NCBI GenBank assembly: GCA_900320055.1
Contig: ONQS01000001.1
Span: forward strand, 98,964-162,963
DNA: 64,000 nt
DNA from: an uncultured Prevotellaceae bacterium
GTDB taxonomy: Bacteria > Bacteroidota > Bacteroidia > Bacteroidales > Muribaculaceae
Reading direction: 5' to 3'
Shown: positions 54,550-60,575 of the stretch, piece after piece
Layout: each line of letters starts with the position of its first letter
Position numbering within the stretch: the stretch's first letter is position 1
Made by a program: the position numbers and the translations under genes
The notes under the pieces: generated by a model
The model's database searches: none
What the model was told of the DNA's origin: nothing
Seen by the model: the letters and a program-made list of their open reading frames with translations, nothing else

Positions 54550-56406
54550 TTAATCGCAGGAGATCGTTGCGTAGGGATTGGAAATGCGCCAGATGGTGCC
54601 CTCGATGAGTGAGCAGTAGATGTCGCCGGTCGCGGGATCGAGTTCAAAGCCGTTGACCTCGCTTGTACCCAGGCGATAAGTGAACTCCAGTTGATGGGTT
54701 CCGGCATTGACTACGGCCAGCATACCACGGCGGGAGCCGCAGTAGATATAGCCGTTATGTTCAAGGACGATGCAGGGGGCATGTTCGTAGCCAAACCCTA
54801 AATCCACCTTCCACAAGAACTGATACTTTTCGCCCGTGCTCATGGCGACCAGTTCGCCATCCATCGTTTTGGCATAGGCCACCTCGCCATCAGCACTGTA
54901 GCCCAGGCTCTCACGCACCTTGTTTTCGTTCTTCTCGCGCCATATTTCTGTGCCACTCTTGCGGTCAATGGCGGTTGAAACGCGGTCGGGGGCAACGATA
55001 ACCACACGCTCGGGTGTCACTACAGGTACGACATTGCCAGGACTGTATAGGTTGACGGATTTGCCGTTGTTCCACTGCCATCGAAGGACTCCCGTGCGGC
55101 GGTCGAGGCAGCGAAGATAGGTGTCCCAAGCACCAAAGATGACATCATTGCCATCAACTATGGGCGCGGCCTGGCAATAGTTGTTGATACTGTCATATTG
55201 CCACAACAGGCGGTGCCGTTTCACATCCCATGCCTGGAAGGTCATGAAACCGCCCTGATAGAGGATGCCGTCCTTGACCACGCCATCGGCCACATAGGGA
55301 CCATCGGCTTCATATTGCCATTTGACTTTTCCCGTCTGTTTGTCTATCCATACAAGGCGCTTGTCGCTGGTGGGCAGCACAATGTACTTGTCACCCACTG
55401 CGGGACGTGAGAACAGCATCGCGCCGGTCTTGTACTGCCATCGCAGTTTGCCCGTCTTTTTGTCAACAGCCTTGCAGTAGCCCAGTGAATTGCCGAAGTA
55501 CAGATTTTTAGCATCAATGCCCACGCGTGTGAAGATGGAAGCATTATCGGCCACCACGCGCTCGATGACGATATCTTCATTAGGCACCGAATAATGTTCC
55601 TCTGTAAGTTGAGGCGAGTAATAGTCCATGTTGATGCGATAAGAGAACATCACCTCGGGATCCTTGCCCAACACCTTATTATATACATATATCCATTGGC
55701 GGTCCAGGTCGATGTTCATCAATGTGTAACCGTAGTTACCGCCACCCATGTCGAGAGCACGCACCATCACGCCGTTGATGCCGTCGGTCTCATACAGGCG
55801 CCAGCGGTGGTAATGGCCACACTGGTGGGTGATTACCGGATATTTCTTGAGGATATCGACATAGGCCCGATAATTGTCCAGGTCATCGAGGATGGGATAG
55901 TGGTTGACGCTCAGCACCTGCATGCCGGGCTTGACCATCACATTGAGGGTGCTGTCGAGCCACAGCAGGTCCTCTTGCTTGATGTGTCCATCACCCATCT
56001 TCATGAACGGGCCGCAGTTCATGCCCACGACCACCAGGTTGCCGACCGTGAAAACAAATCGGTCGCTGCCCCACAGGTCATTAAACGTCTTGCACGCACT
56101 CTGGCTCCAATTATTCTCGTGGTTGCCGGGAATGACATAGAGCGGATGTGTGATGTCATCAAGGATGTCCTTGATGTTATGTAACTGCACATCGCTGCCC
56201 TCGTTGGTCAGGTCACCTGTCATCATCACGGCATCAACATCGGTAGCGTTGATTTCGGCAACGGCCTCACGCAGTTTGCCCTCGTTGGCATTGCCAGGCG
56301 AGACGTGCACATCGCTCAGAATGGCAAGTCTGATCACCCCACCCTCTAGGGCTAGGGGTAGAGTCAAAATCGTGATTAAAAGAATGATAAAACGTCTTTT
56401 TGTCAT
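54550..56406 (-). CDS. Exported calcineurin-like phosphoesterase fused to a PQQ-type beta-propeller
   Basis: 618 residues. An N-terminal hydrophobic segment (FIILLITILTLPLALEGG) is a signal peptide or anchor. The phosphoesterase domain (about 25-225) has the full metal set: SDVH (Asp32, His34), GDLTNEG (Asp65), GNHEN (Asn95, His96), VNHYP (His169) and CGHYH (His198, His200). From about 290 to the end, repeats such as TGKLRWQYKTG and TGKVKWQYEADG show a PQQ-like propeller. The phosphoester substrate is unknown; nucleotides are common substrates in this superfamily. It follows the small RyR-domain gene by 41 bases on the same strand and may be the third gene of that operon. Confidence 0.85.
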   Translation of the reverse strand: MTKRRFIILLITILTLPLALEGGVIRLAILSDVHVSPGNANEGKLREAVAEINATDVDAVMMTGDLTNEGSDVQLHNIKDILDDITHPLYVIPGNHENNWSQSACKTFNDLWGSDRFVFTVGNLVVVGMNCGPFMKMGDGHIKQEDLLWLDSTLNVMVKPGMQVLSVNHYPILDDLDNYRAYVDILKKYPVITHQCGHYHRWRLYETDGINGVMVRALDMGGGNYGYTLMNIDLDRQWIYVYNKVLGKDPEVMFSYRINMDYYSPQLTEEHYSVPNEDIVIERVVADNASIFTRVGIDAKNLYFGNSLGYCKAVDKKTGKLRWQYKTGAMLFSRPAVGDKYIVLPTSDKRLVWIDKQTGKVKWQYEADGPYVADGVVKDGILYQGGFMTFQAWDVKRHRLLWQYDSINNYCQAAPIVDGNDVIFGAWDTYLRCLDRRTGVLRWQWNNGKSVNLYSPGNVVPVVTPERVVIVAPDRVSTAIDRKSGTEIWREKNENKVRESLGYSADGEVAYAKTMDGELVAMSTGEKYQFLWKVDLGFGYEHAPCIVLEHNGYIYCGSRRGMLAVVNAGTHQLEFTYRLGTSEVNGFELDPATGDIYCSLIEGTIWRISNPYATISCD

Positions 56407-56428
56407 ATCTGCTTGAATTGATGTTTAT

Positions 56429-56452
56429 TGTCTATTTGTCTATTTGTCTATT
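56429..56452. repeat. Three tandem copies of an octamer at the 3' end of the small RyR gene
   Basis: TGTCTATT occurs three times in a row (56429-56452). The last copy covers the TAG stop codon of the small RyR gene (minus strand). The number of copies could vary by slippage. Confidence 0.8.
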
Positions 56453-56750
56453 TTGAAATCTTATACCCCAACTTGATGATTAATTTCAGAGTCCCTAAAG
56501 CGGTGTCTCGGTCATACTGTTTCTCTGTCTCGGTCAACTCGTCATAAGGAACCAGGCAGGGATGGGTCTTGAGTTCATCGCTGCGCCGTTCCCCCCAAGT
56601 CCAGCCTTGTGACAATCTGGAACTAGCCCATACTTGATGAACGTTGCGGGCAATCAATTCGACCAGATTCTCCATATCCTTGGGTAATGTGATATCGCTG
56701 GTGTCGATGGGCTGTGGATTGTATTGACTATTGGTCTTCATTATATTCAT
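56448..56750 (-). CDS. Stand-alone RyR-domain protein
   Basis: 100 residues (a second ATG three codons later is possible). Apart from a short N-terminal tail it is a single RyR domain, named after the repeat of ryanodine receptors: NVHQVWASSRLSQGWTWG, the HPCLVPYDEL segment, EKQYDRDTA and LGTLKLIIKLGY are all at the expected places. No signal or membrane segment, so cytoplasmic. Bacterial RyR domains have been proposed from comparative genomics to bind nucleotide-derived ligands; this is not established for this protein. It sits 52 bases behind the large membrane protein whose C-terminus is also RyR-like, and 41 bases before a phosphoesterase gene. Confidence 0.85.
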   Translation of the reverse strand: MNIMKTNSQYNPQPIDTSDITLPKDMENLVELIARNVHQVWASSRLSQGWTWGERRSDELKTHPCLVPYDELTETEKQYDRDTALGTLKLIIKLGYKISK

Positions 56751-56802
56751 TGTCGATTAAGTAAGCCATAGAATATGTTTTTGTCGATCGCTAGCATTAT
56801 CG

Positions 56803-59151
56803 TTAGATGATGCCAAGCGATACGTCCACCACGTTGTAATCGTAACTCCTCACGGTTGTTGACAACGCGCTCCATGGTTTGAGGCACCCGTGCAGGAGCC
56901 GGGCTTCGTCTTTATCGGCCTCGGTCCCGTCATCGCGATATCCCAGTATTTCATGTGATGCCATCCAGCGCAGATGTTCTGTCTGTGCGAGCACATCAAG
57001 CACTCTTGTGATAGCGGCGTCGGGTTGGCAGCCGGTCCATTGATAGGTAGTCTCATTCTCGTTGCGGCGAAGATGCCCGCCACTGAGCACACCGTATTTA
57101 TCCTCGCCTAATGCCGATTGTGCCAGGAATCGTTTTGTCTGCTGGTGGAAGCAATTCTCCATATTCTGGCGTTGCACACGGCGCAGCCTCATGATGCTGG
57201 AGAATGTGGGTGAATAGGATTTATCGCTATCATCGGCCGATTGTGCGGTCACATGTTCATTGTCTGGTCTCACAATCGACTGGTTACTCATCGCCCTGAT
57301 CGATTGGTCATACTTCTTCTTGAACAGCAGGGCTTCATGCTGGAGTTGGTCACTTACGATATAATCCCAAGTGAAGGTGGACTCTGTCGAACCAAAGATC
57401 GTGATCGGCTCATGGATGATATCGCTCACACCTATCGTCTGCTGATGACAATGCTGAGGATCATCACTGTGCACCTCGGCGGCCCATAGCCTGTTGTAAT
57501 GCTCTGTGATGTGCAGCAGGTGACCACCCTCATCATCCCTTACCCTGGCCAGGATGCGCAGTTTGGACATCTTGGTCTGGTGCCGCACAGCGAGCCTGAA
57601 GATCCGCACTGCAAGCGAGACATTCTCCTCATCGTCGTCAAGGGCTAGCACGATATAATTGAGCGTTGCAATCCACTGCTCGATGTGCCGATAGAAGTCC
57701 ACACTGTGAATATCCAGATTGTGCAGCGTGAAGGGGGATGGTGAGCCCTGATTCTCATCGTCATAAGTGATCTGACGGGATATTGATGGCGCGTTGACGG
57801 CAAACAGTCCTGCGCTAGCCTTGATGTTCTTGTCGACCACATGGCAATGGAAGCCGGAGCGTTCTGCCCTATCGGAGTCGCTACCTGTCTTGACAAACGC
57901 GCCAAACTCATAGAGGAATCGCACGGCATCCTGCCCCACTTCGCCAAACCCCACGACCAGCGCATTAAAGTCGGATGAGACAGTTGCATCGTCTTGGATA
58001 TCGACATAATTGACGGGATGAAAACAGAAGTTCTGTTTCAGTATCTCTACACTGATATGAGAGGCGTCAACAACCTTGACCTCGATGCCACTGGGTGCTT
58101 GCTCATCCTCAATCACGCGGTGCACGCTGTTATAGCGGGCTTTGCAATACAGGGTGACGTGTACGCCTCGGTCAGCAGCCATGTTGACAGAGGAGTCCAT
58201 CTTGAGGTTGCTTACTGCCATAATATTGTGGTCATCATCGTCAGAGAGTAAGAATATGTGTAATCTGCGGGTGGTCTTCTGTCGTATAATTCGGCTCATC
58301 TGATTGAGATGAAGATGATGGCGCAAGATGTCGATAGAGGATGCTTCGGCATGTTGCTTGAACGGCAGGTTTGACAAGTCGGAATAGGTGCTGGTAGTGA
58401 GGCAATTCAAACTCGATAACCTTTCGAGGTCAGTGTTATTGATCGAGAGGAAGTTGAACAACCGCTCCATACCATTTTTCACGCTCGACTGGTTGTTGTC
58501 GTGGTTGGAACGAACAACGATGATGCGGTAGTCCTTGCTGTTGCCGCCATAATGCTGCCTGATGCTGCGTGCCAACTGATAGGATGCATCGTTAAGCCCC
58601 CAGAGCACGTAGGTCTCTTGTTTCTTGCCGAGAACGTAGGCTTCAAAAAGCAATCTGAAACCGGCAATGATGTGGTAGCCGAAATGCTTGATAACAAACA
58701 CCAAGGTGATGATTGCAGCCAGTAGATGTACCAATGAGAATGCCCCCATATAAATCCAGTTGTCATGAAACTGGTCATGGATTGCAGCCACATCACTCTC
58801 CAGCAGGAACATCTCAAAGGCATGGATGATAGCCATCGGCATGTTGGTAAGCAAGGACAACCGGTTGTGACCGATGTACATGCCCACGTCATAAATGACA
58901 AAGCCGGCAAGCCAAATTAGTGTGAACGCTGTGGTCAGGAACTTGCCCGATACATTCCATCGGTTATCCTTGTCGTACCGATTCAGAACCAGCAGCACAA
59001 CAAGCAAGATAATGACCAATGCGACGCCCATCACGCTACTCCAACTGGCCATTGTTGTCAGATAATTGGTCACGTCAAAGTTGTGATGGTGATATGCGGG
59101 AAGACTATTAAACAAGTCGCTTATATTTAATAATAATGAGTATTGGGTCAT
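56803..59151 (-). CDS. Membrane protein with two Rossmann (TrkA-N/RCK-like) domains and a C-terminal RyR-like domain
   Basis: 782 residues from ATG 59151; a longer frame reaches 59229 but its start lies upstream of the promoter. Three hydrophobic helices are visible at about 38-57, 71-91 and 133-155. A first nucleotide-binding fold follows (YVLWGLNDASYQLA, about 181-194) and a second near residue 400 (ALVVGFGEVGQDAVRFL, a good GxGxxG), an order like the tandem RCK domains of potassium channels. The last 65 residues, from AQTEHLRWMASHEILGY to LKPWSALS and YDYNVVDVSL, have the RyR pattern EHxRW...G...H..L.PW..L...D. No TVGYG filter is present, so a potassium channel is not supported. Likely first gene of an operon with the two genes that follow. 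Confidence 0.75.
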   Translation of the reverse strand: MTQYSLLLNISDLFNSLPAYHHHNFDVTNYLTTMASWSSVMGVALVIILLVVLLVLNRYDKDNRWNVSGKFLTTAFTLIWLAGFVIYDVGMYIGHNRLSLLTNMPMAIIHAFEMFLLESDVAAIHDQFHDNWIYMGAFSLVHLLAAIITLVFVIKHFGYHIIAGFRLLFEAYVLGKKQETYVLWGLNDASYQLARSIRQHYGGNSKDYRIIVVRSNHDNNQSSVKNGMERLFNFLSINNTDLERLSSLNCLTTSTYSDLSNLPFKQHAEASSIDILRHHLHLNQMSRIIRQKTTRRLHIFLLSDDDDHNIMAVSNLKMDSSVNMAADRGVHVTLYCKARYNSVHRVIEDEQAPSGIEVKVVDASHISVEILKQNFCFHPVNYVDIQDDATVSSDFNALVVGFGEVGQDAVRFLYEFGAFVKTGSDSDRAERSGFHCHVVDKNIKASAGLFAVNAPSISRQITYDDENQGSPSPFTLHNLDIHSVDFYRHIEQWIATLNYIVLALDDDEENVSLAVRIFRLAVRHQTKMSKLRILARVRDDEGGHLLHITEHYNRLWAAEVHSDDPQHCHQQTIGVSDIIHEPITIFGSTESTFTWDYIVSDQLQHEALLFKKKYDQSIRAMSNQSIVRPDNEHVTAQSADDSDKSYSPTFSSIMRLRRVQRQNMENCFHQQTKRFLAQSALGEDKYGVLSGGHLRRNENETTYQWTGCQPDAAITRVLDVLAQTEHLRWMASHEILGYRDDGTEADKDEARLLHGCLKPWSALSTTVRSYDYNVVDVSLGII

Positions 59152-59304: not shown

Positions 59305-59312
59305 TACTTTTG
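59305..59312 (+). promoter_or_regulatory. -7 element of the LolC/E-like gene, close to its ATG
   Basis: TACTTTTG matches TAnnTTTG and ends nine bases before the ATG at 59322, leaving a leader of only about three bases. Confidence 0.55.
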
Positions 59313-59321
59313 CACTCGTCA

Positions 59322-60575
59322 ATGAATCATGAACTTTACATAGCGCGGCGCATGTCGCTGAACGGGGAGCAGCAAAAAGGCTCTCCGAGCCTAACCGTTG
59401 CCTTGGTGGGCATCGTGCTCGCTGTGACTGTGATGATATTGTCCGTTGCTGTAGTGATGGGCTTCAAAGGCGAGATCACCGGCAAGATCATGAATCTCGA
59501 TGCCCATCTCAAAGTCACTAATGCTGCCCTTGGCATTGATGATAATTATGCGACAGTCAATGGACGTGAAGTGAGAGAGGCGATTGCCGCCAATCAGGAC
59601 TTTGCTCCTCTGGTCGAGAGCATCAGCCTTGTCGCTGACAAGAGCGCGATACTTAAAACGGATAACGACTTTATGGGCATCATTATGCGAGGCGTTGATG
59701 AGGGATATGATTTCCGTTATCTCGAGGACAAGATGATCACCGGCCATACTCCTGTTGTGAGCGATACGGCAACCGAGCAACAAATCGCTATCTCGAAAAC
59801 AGTCGCCGACCGCTTGCGTTTGCAAGCGGGTGATAAAGTGCTCACCTACTTTATTGATCAAAACATCAAGGTGAGGAACCTGAGCATAAGCGGAGTGTTT
59901 GAAACCGACCTCGAAGCCTTTGACGGCGCATACATTGTTGGGGGAATCGGTATTGTGCAAGGCGTTAACGGATGGAATGGCGACACGGGCACACAAGTGG
60001 CTGTCAACATGAAGGATCCTAACGACCTGGAGAGTGACGGCTATTTCCTGTATTCGTTGCTTGCCGAGAACACTGTGAAGCAAGAAAGCAAGAATCTGTT
60101 TTTTGTCACAACCACTCAGCAGAACAATCTAGCCTTCTTCGCATGGCTGCAGATGCTGGACATGAATGTGGTGATTATCCTGACACTAATGATGATTGTG
60201 GCCGCATTTACTCTTATTTCGGCCATGCTGATGATTGTGCTTGAGCGAATACGTGTCATAGGTAACTTTAAGGCCATGGGCGCTACCAATGGTTCAATAC
60301 GCCGAATCTTCATCTACATGACTGGCAAACTCATCCTCAAGGCGCTTATCATCGGCAACATCATCGGCATCGGCCTTGCCTTGCTGCAGAAGTATGGACA
60401 CATTGTGCGACTAGACCCTGCCTCCTACTACATGCCTTATGTTCCCATCCAACTGAGCATCCCGGCCCTGCTGATGCTCAACGTGGGCATCATCATCGTG
60501 TCCTACCTCACCCTGCTTGGCGCCAGCCACATCATCTCGACCATCAAGCCGACGTCCACCATGCGCTTCGAGTGA
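59322..60575 (+). CDS. LolC/LolE-family lipoprotein-releasing permease (FtsX/MacB fold)
   Basis: 417 residues from ATG 59322 (MNHELYIARRMSLN, the usual start of such permeases). One helix near 27-50 (LTVALVGIVLAVTVMILSVAVVMGF), a large periplasmic domain to about 265, then three helices (about 275-300, 325-350, 380-405) with the FtsX signature ISAMLMIVLERIRVIGNFKAMGA. LolC/E proteins move lipoproteins from the inner membrane to LolA, with the ATPase LolD, which is not beside it. A MacB-like role is the alternative. Divergent from the RyR operon. About 50 bases separate it from the PreA-like gene. Confidence 0.85.
   Translation: MNHELYIARRMSLNGEQQKGSPSLTVALVGIVLAVTVMILSVAVVMGFKGEITGKIMNLDAHLKVTNAALGIDDNYATVNGREVREAIAANQDFAPLVESISLVADKSAILKTDNDFMGIIMRGVDEGYDFRYLEDKMITGHTPVVSDTATEQQIAISKTVADRLRLQAGDKVLTYFIDQNIKVRNLSISGVFETDLEAFDGAYIVGGIGIVQGVNGWNGDTGTQVAVNMKDPNDLESDGYFLYSLLAENTVKQESKNLFFVTTTQQNNLAFFAWLQMLDMNVVIILTLMMIVAAFTLISAMLMIVLERIRVIGNFKAMGATNGSIRRIFIYMTGKLILKALIIGNIIGIGLALLQKYGHIVRLDPASYYMPYVPIQLSIPALLMLNVGIIIVSYLTLLGASHIISTIKPTSTMRFE

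Follow-up and report, generated by a model that had tools for sequence, protein, structure and literature searches.

Locus organisation

The 64,000-nucleotide stretch of DNA analysed here, referred to as the window, belongs to contig ONQS01000001.1 of an uncultured Prevotellaceae bacterium whose assembly comprises 2.6 Mb in 73 contigs and is 92.8 % complete. Its reverse strand carries a pair of adjacent genes with RyR domains, P0001 and P0002, which together with their relatives are the subject of this analysis. P0001 (56803-59151) encodes a 782-aa protein with three transmembrane helices, tandem TrkA/RCK-type Rossmann domains and a C-terminal RyR domain. P0002 (56448-56750) encodes a 100-aa stand-alone RyR-domain protein and starts 52 bases after P0001. 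A third gene on the same strand, P0003 (54550-56406), follows after 41 bases and encodes a 618-aa protein that combines a calcineurin-like phosphoesterase with a PQQ/BamB-type propeller and has an export signal by eye. These open reading frames (ORFs), their common strand and the 41-base interval agree with an earlier description made from the DNA letters alone (the sequence-only reading). The intergenic region upstream of P0001 (59152-59309), likely to hold the reverse-strand promoter of P0001-P0002-P0003, is bordered by a forward-strand gene for an FtsX-like permease (59310-60575), which is named by resemblance alone.

RyR domains of P0002 and P0001

P0002 matched PF02026 at 128.7 bits (E 1e-37; curated cut-off 27.4 bits) over positions 1-90 of the 91 in the domain, as anticipated by the sequence-only reading, which had described a free RyR protein with the family signatures. 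It is a direct homologue of the stand-alone RyR protein of Bacteroides thetaiotaomicron (structures 3nrt, with E 4.3e-34, 4n05 and 6uag), and a PDB sequence search also showed homology to all four repeats of animal ryanodine receptors. A 2026 preprint by Lopez Rivera et al. (PMC13232231) describes the binding of 2'/3'-cyclic ADP-ribose (2'/3'cADPR) by phage RyR domains and gives the ligand residues of the founding phage protein RyDEP as H75, W78, H100 and D117 (spacing +3, +25 and +42). Residues H38, W41, H63 and D80 of P0002 have an identical spacing, and this quartet was retained in 57, 57, 52 and 57, respectively, of 57 neighbouring RyR proteins. In the same preprint, six of eight tested phage RyDEP homologues formed a complex with 2'/3'cADPR and two formed no stable complex, while cleavage was seen for RyDEP and for none of the eight homologues. 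Since these homologues mostly bound and none cleaved, P0002 may bind, cleave or do neither. The two homologues without a stable complex and the restriction of cleavage to the founder (PMC13232231) likewise argue that the quartet alone does not set function, which weighs against a role read directly from these residues.

Conservation in P0001 was assessed across 78 anchored loci, consisting of the window and 77 named loci, mostly from gut Bacteroidales, which derive from 80 kept of 136 relatives, representing 78 loci; L143 was left out as it had no usable anchor. Of the 77 anchors other than the window, 76 are in the family alignment (A4); the exception is the protein of L178, whose 602 aa lay outside the length filter. 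Two loci carry unexpected taxonomic labels (L163, Clostridiales; L178, Lachnospiraceae) that may be binning errors.

The RyR domain of P0001 spans about residues 712-780. The sequence-only reading had called it degenerate, which is fair for the sequence as a whole, since the C-terminus fell below the PF02026 curated cut-off (15.4 against 27.4 bits, E 0.023), but not for the candidate ligand residues H726, W729, H754 and D771, which are kept and correspond to RyDEP H75/W78/H100/D117 with a 3-residue insertion. A family profile of the C-terminal 143 residues (77 homologues) matched 3nrt at E 3.7e-7 and 6uhi, a B. thetaiotaomicron/human RyR chimera, at E 9.6e-16. A separate structure model of the segment (pLDDT 94.7) gave 150 PDB matches at E <= 10, and all 50 listed were RyR structures; their E-values were weak, as for a short domain, with a best value of 0.025 and none below 0.001 among those 50. 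TMt values to the B. thetaiotaomicron RyR domain were 0.54-0.61. Profile and predicted fold therefore both identify the C-terminal segment of the large protein as RyR, and with the PF02026 score of P0002 they bear out the earlier observation of two adjoining RyR genes.

The quartet is almost invariant among the 77 homologues (H726 and W729 in 77/77, H754 in 74/77, D771 in 76/77), whose identity to P0001 is as low as 24 %. Two peptide patterns were used in the locus scan and one of them includes the H and W of the quartet; these two residues were kept in 71/71 of the rows that match the pattern without them (71 of the 77 rows). In an 18-row alignment (A1) obtained by whole-protein search with no patterns, the four residues were present in 18, 18, 18 and 17 rows. 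One further comparison was discarded: the profile-profile match between the P0001 C-terminus and P0002 (E 4.2e-42) is an artefact, having aligned to an extra fused RyR domain in the row of locus L174.

Membrane and Rossmann domains of P0001

The full-length model of P0001 (pLDDT 88.3, pTM 0.83) has transmembrane helices at residues 28-58, 69-90 and 132-172. The 3-helix membrane protein of the sequence-only reading is recovered in this count, while a short re-entrant-type helix (104-115), which lies between the second and third helices of the monomer model, had been overlooked. Two Rossmann domains follow at about 177-380 and 394-600 (limits set by eye from the model). The P0001 sequence matched nothing in the PDB at E <= 1; the fold search returned 16 PDB matches at E <= 0.001, 13 of which were TrkA, TrkH/TrkA, Slo1 or other channels. 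The best was the TrkA gating ring 4j9v (E 9.4e-8), with Slo1 8gh9 at E 2.3e-5 and, beyond the 16, Slo2.2 at E 3.8e-3, in keeping with the two TrkA-N/RCK-like folds proposed earlier. In the second Rossmann domain G401, G406 and D440 are each present in 77/77 homologues and G403 in 55/77, forming a GxGxxG...D pattern that we take to be an NAD-type signature.

The modelled architecture suggests that P0001 is probably an RCK-type ion channel. Several results weigh against this assignment. The other three of the 16 fold matches were SPY and transhydrogenase structures, the first 12 rows gave low full-length TM-scores to Trk/Slo structures (TMq 0.24-0.28), and the TVGYG selectivity filter was found in 0/77 homologues when the first 250 residues were scanned. 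Given these low scores and the SPY and transhydrogenase matches, the channel reading rests on the helix pattern together with the RCK tandem. F115, at the end of the short helix, is invariant among the 77 homologues, and residue 120, just after it, is acidic in 73 of them (68 D, 5 E). According to PMC6697748, CASTOR is an RCK channel that lacks TVGYG and requires an acidic filter residue.

Distribution and conserved gene neighbourhood

P0001 has a patchy distribution. Matches were detected in 18 of 101 genomes, namely the window's own, 15 of 60 from the same genus (one of which, G002, has just a fragment, at the end of a contig) and two more. An order-level search found 14 of 393 genomes with more than 200 bits to P0001, the window's own included. 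When the phylum was searched with alignment A4 (395 genomes), 25 genomes beyond the window gave matches, all of them short, no higher than 45.4 bits and for the most part to RyR stretches.

An operon was defined as the same-strand run around P0001 with gaps of at most 150 bases, based on simple ORF calls of at least 60 aa. The pairing of two RyR genes recurs across relatives. Of the 78 loci, 51 have a second RyR gene within 9 kb, 39 have one in the operon run and 19 have one directly adjacent, and RyR genes make up 41 of 273 operon genes compared with 15 of 783 flanking genes. At L174 (9965-12397) the two genes form a natural P0001-P0002 fusion of 811 aa with RyR domains at 629-709 and 718-808; the next gene encodes a TIR protein from a cluster whose representative is TIR+FGE.

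TIR genes were the other prominent component of these operons. Pfam annotation of random samples of genes encoding 100-1100 aa (95 drawn from the 235 in operons and 95 from the 644 in flanks) assigned TIR_2 to 24/95 operon genes and 2/95 flanking genes from the same loci. Three separately seeded TIR profiles converged on one set of 65 proteins, and by these profiles TIR genes comprised 46 of 273 operon genes and 19 of 783 flanking genes (p about 5e-15). The enrichment persisted on removal of the 13-member clade that contains the window (37/225 operon and 18/683 flanking genes). Of 68 TIR domain hits, 67 retain the glutamate of the WVxxE motif, presumably the catalytic residue of NADase TIRs.

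A TIR gene occurred within 9 kb in 46/78 loci and in the operon run in 36/78. Classified jointly, 22 operon runs combined TIR with a second RyR gene, 17 had RyR only, 14 had TIR only and 25 had neither. These last 25 loci count against a fixed module, as do the 12/78 anchors that stand alone with no same-strand neighbour within 150 bases and the 32/78 loci with no TIR gene within 9 kb, some of which are on very short contigs (L154, L165). P0001 is strongly, though not invariably, associated with RyR and TIR genes. The Butyrivibrio fibrisolvens plasmid pNP243 (L234:5149-9728) offers an example from a different phylum: a diverged 604-aa P0001-like protein (hhalign probability 99.7) is encoded there directly after a TIR gene.

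Further operon partners included caspase C14 with LRR (cluster c10, 8/78 loci), CHAT, trypsin, M48, PrsW, SIR2+TIR, TPR and WD40 proteins. PADLOC, run on the operon sample only (n=95) and without a flank control, most often returned the models SAVED-TIR (14), PDC-S66 (a candidate family; 12), Aga_TIR (10) and ThsB (9); ThsA was not among the 25 PADLOC families listed for this sample. The sequence-only reading had suggested a nucleotide-signalling or conflict setting for the RyR genes, and this is supported by the TIR genes in the operons of relatives together with the 2'/3'cADPR binding reported in PMC13232231.

The variety of these partners (caspase C14, CHAT, trypsin, M48, PrsW, TPR) would also suit a different role for P0001, as a nucleotide sensor or scaffold anchored in the membrane, to which TIR, TPR, caspase or CHAT proteins are recruited and whose RyR and Rossmann domains would control assembly by binding NAD-derived ligands. 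The lack of a K+ filter motif among P0001 homologues is consistent with such a role, and so are the RyR proteins of cluster c4 (485-540 aa, with a Rossmann part by eye and no Pfam match), which occur in similar operons and have no obvious transmembrane helix. The modelled order of transmembrane helix, short helix and transmembrane helix ahead of a tandem RCK module nevertheless resembles Slo/TrkA-type gating, the invariant F115 and the acidic residue 120 might suit a pore loop, and CASTOR, an RCK channel with no TVGYG, depends on an acidic filter residue (PMC6697748). A scaffold is regarded as rather unlikely.

A chromosomal site occupied in some genomes and empty in others

The sequence-only reading had counted the phosphoesterase/propeller protein P0003 as a partner of the RyR proteins. 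This did not hold. P0003 is a common chromosomal gene, present in 55/60 same-genus genomes, 40 of which have no P0001 match. Among 19 P0003 regions, picked mostly from genomes without the module at that place, the site was empty in 14, with P0003 directly facing the FtsX-like gene. In G002 a TPR-size gene, a TIR-size gene and P0002 stand before P0003, and the other four regions had other neighbours. P0003, which flanks the site and is often found without P0001, was therefore rejected as a component of the system. P0001 lies on another contig in five of the 14 genomes whose site is empty (G006, G009, G025, G036 and G054). The gap measured 61-348 bases at nine empty sites and 2.9-8.9 kb at five occupied sites. 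At L103 and L108 the module precedes P0003 and the other flank is not the FtsX-like gene.

The motif TAnnTTTG, which we take to be the Bacteroidota -7-like promoter consensus, was located 26-39 bases upstream of P0003 in 9/9 empty sites. It is missing from the 41 bases before P0003 in the window (56407-56447) and before P0003 in 6/6 other occupied loci, where the gaps are 7-37 bases. The nearest match in the window, TATTTTTGC, lies 64 bases before the P0001 ATG. Presence of the motif at empty sites and its absence before P0003 at occupied ones suggest that the module was inserted between P0003 and its promoter. From these sequence comparisons, insertion appears to have split P0003 from its own promoter, so that P0003 now likely depends on the promoter of P0001; by position, it is probably co-transcribed with P0001-P0002.

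Presence of the module in some relatives and its absence from the same site in others bear on whether P0001 might serve ordinary cation or redox homeostasis, as an NAD-responsive RCK-type transporter regulator to which the TIR linkage is incidental. The RCK/TrkA folds and the GxGxxG...D signature agree with such a function. It is at odds with the presence of P0001 in 15/60 same-genus genomes, with a site that is occupied in some relatives and empty in others, with the enrichment of TIR and RyR genes in operon runs relative to flanks, and with the finding of no TrkH-like partner among annotated cluster representatives and sampled genes (25 commonest families listed). A housekeeping role is considered very improbable.

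The window copy and its relatives

In the window there is no TIR gene within 9 kb of P0001, and the P0001-P0002 pair has no TIR, caspase or TPR gene next to it. The window falls in a supported 7-row clade (100/97) with L102, L103, L105, L106, L108 and L104. The first five of these relatives have a full operon in the order P0001 - TPR - ~285-aa protein - LRR/caspase - TIR - P0002 - P0003, and L104 has P0001 - TIR - P0003. Nesting of the window among these kin makes loss of the middle genes the best explanation of its pair, and this copy has apparently lost its TIR gene. The same TIR-less pair occurs at L130, which is sister (100/99) to L109, a locus with TPR and TIR genes; gene loss has thus probably happened at least twice.

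This history raises the possibility that the pair in the window is a remnant of a TIR operon, either with no present function or acting as an anti-signal sink. Its position within the full-operon clade and the independent case of L130 fit such a remnant. So do two features that speak against full activity: no other row of the 7-row clade has an end branch as long as that of the window (0.43), and the window has changed at 12 of 227 clade-conserved sites, a count shared with L130 and exceeded by none of the 13 compared. The reading frames and all ligand residues are intact, however, and P0001 differs at 2 of 61 family-conserved sites, within the range of its kin (0-3). The dN/dS against eight relatives is low (0.07-0.14), although dS is saturated and the value mostly reflects shared history. 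One TIR gene also persists elsewhere in the genome. It encodes a 310-aa protein on another contig (L231:6612-7544) and contains the sole TIR_2 match of the genome at E <= 0.001 (G000:C26:45220-45522). As the only two PF02026 matches of the genome (E <= 1), P0001 and P0002, are both on the contig of the window, this TIR protein is a possible partner in trans. The pair in the window would thus either depend on a partner in trans or be a remnant, and we hold the latter to be a real possibility, though one that probably does not apply.

Proposed function and relation to known systems

We tentatively propose, with slightly less than even confidence, that P0001-P0002 is the core left from a nucleotide-signalling module in gut Bacteroidales, one that is associated with TIR and probably acts against phages. 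In complete operons the TIR protein would turn NAD into an ADP-ribose-type signal, which the C-terminal RyR domain of P0001 would bind. The tandem RCK-like Rossmann domains would pass binding on to the membrane part, and opening of an ion pathway could leave the cell depolarised or arrested. P0002 would bind the same ligand, and might act as a buffer or hydrolase against false alarms or as a co-receptor. The observations of the sequence-only reading are confirmed and its interpretation is partly supported.

In addition to the TIR-less window and the loci without partners, some results count against this proposal. PADLOC assigned neither P0001 nor P0002 to a system. No P0001 match was found in 50,697 phage records, which is no test of defence; a pattern scan of IMG/VR gave 25 stretches, none a P0001 relative; and there was a single diverged P0001 match among 72,556 plasmid records. 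An origin of P0001 on phages or plasmids was rejected after these scans.

A more far-reaching scheme, which we regard as speculative and somewhat doubtful, is that a TIR-made cADPR isomer acts through RyR on an RCK-gated channel to stop the infected cell, with phage RyR proteins as derived or convergent decoys. The system would then be a prokaryotic immune counterpart of the animal cADPR-RyR link. Animal ryanodine receptors similarly have RyR repeat domains on an ion-channel-like protein and a link to cADPR, but their homology to P0001 and P0002 is in the RyR domain alone, and the gating module here is of TrkA/RCK type. RyDEP and the PF02026 phage proteins share the RyR (Repeat12) fold and the H/W/H/D quartet with P0001 and P0002. 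They differ as free phage counter-defence enzymes or sponges, whereas the domains described here are encoded by the host, one of them as part of an RCK-type membrane protein.

Thoeris (ThsB/ThsA) systems include TIR-caspase forms. Like them, relatives of the window have TIR and a candidate signal-sensing effector in one operon, and 8/78 loci have a caspase partner. In contrast to Thoeris, no known ThsA-type effector was found, the candidate sensor is an RyR domain carried by a membrane protein of RCK type, several partners appear by eye to be exported, and the window copy is without TIR. P0001 also resembles TrkH/TrkA, Slo1 (BK) and CASTOR/POLLUX in having a tandem RCK-type module behind a modelled transmembrane-loop-transmembrane arrangement, and is set apart by its added C-terminal RyR domain and by a conductance that is only predicted. 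Within the literature searched, PMC13232231 is the paper on RyR domains and TIR signalling, and an earlier description of this module is possible; a word search of PMC7159879 found neither RyR nor ryanodine.

In the host family described here a RyDEP-type pocket is carried by a putative channel of RCK type whose gene is often found in TIR operons; this makes the action of cADPR on RyR domains, and the purpose of bacterial RyR domains, open to experiment. If the proposal is true, it adds a possible class of TIR effector and suggests a possible source of phage RyR sponges.

Other RyR-domain genes in relatives and in phage records

Two other arrangements of RyR genes were noted near P0001 homologues. 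At L121 (12908-14378) a small sigma-factor-like gene (by eye) is followed by a gene for a ~320-aa protein with a C-terminal RyR domain (clusters c6 and c5). This pair is also found at L116, L117, L124, L126, L149, L153, L162 and L163 and repeatedly adjoins P0001 homologues; the sigma-factor-like gene gave a Pfam match to DUF1492 only, below the cut-off. At L138, L136, L139, L122, L123 and L113 a c4 RyR protein (here 510-540 aa), a trypsin-like protein, a kinase-like fragment and a CHAT-TPR protein are encoded near P0001 homologues, and this operon is possibly a separate RyR-based protease system. In L034:4747-10293 (DEKO01000046.1 / L123), P0001 is followed by SIR2+TIR, a STAND-like ATPase that by eye ends in a lysozyme-like domain, and a c4-type RyR protein.

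Two records labelled 'Bacteriophage sp.' from human faeces (MT837259, L232:11061-11354; MT836850, L233:7046-7348) contain homologues with 62-63 % identity to P0002. They were not counted as phage, being probably mislabelled contigs, since their neighbouring genes look bacterial by eye. RyR-domain matches were present in 215 phage records and were common in Salmonella, Pseudomonas, Aeromonas and Arthrobacter phages; Aeromonas phage ZPAH1 encodes an RyR-domain protein annotated as 'ryanodine receptor'.

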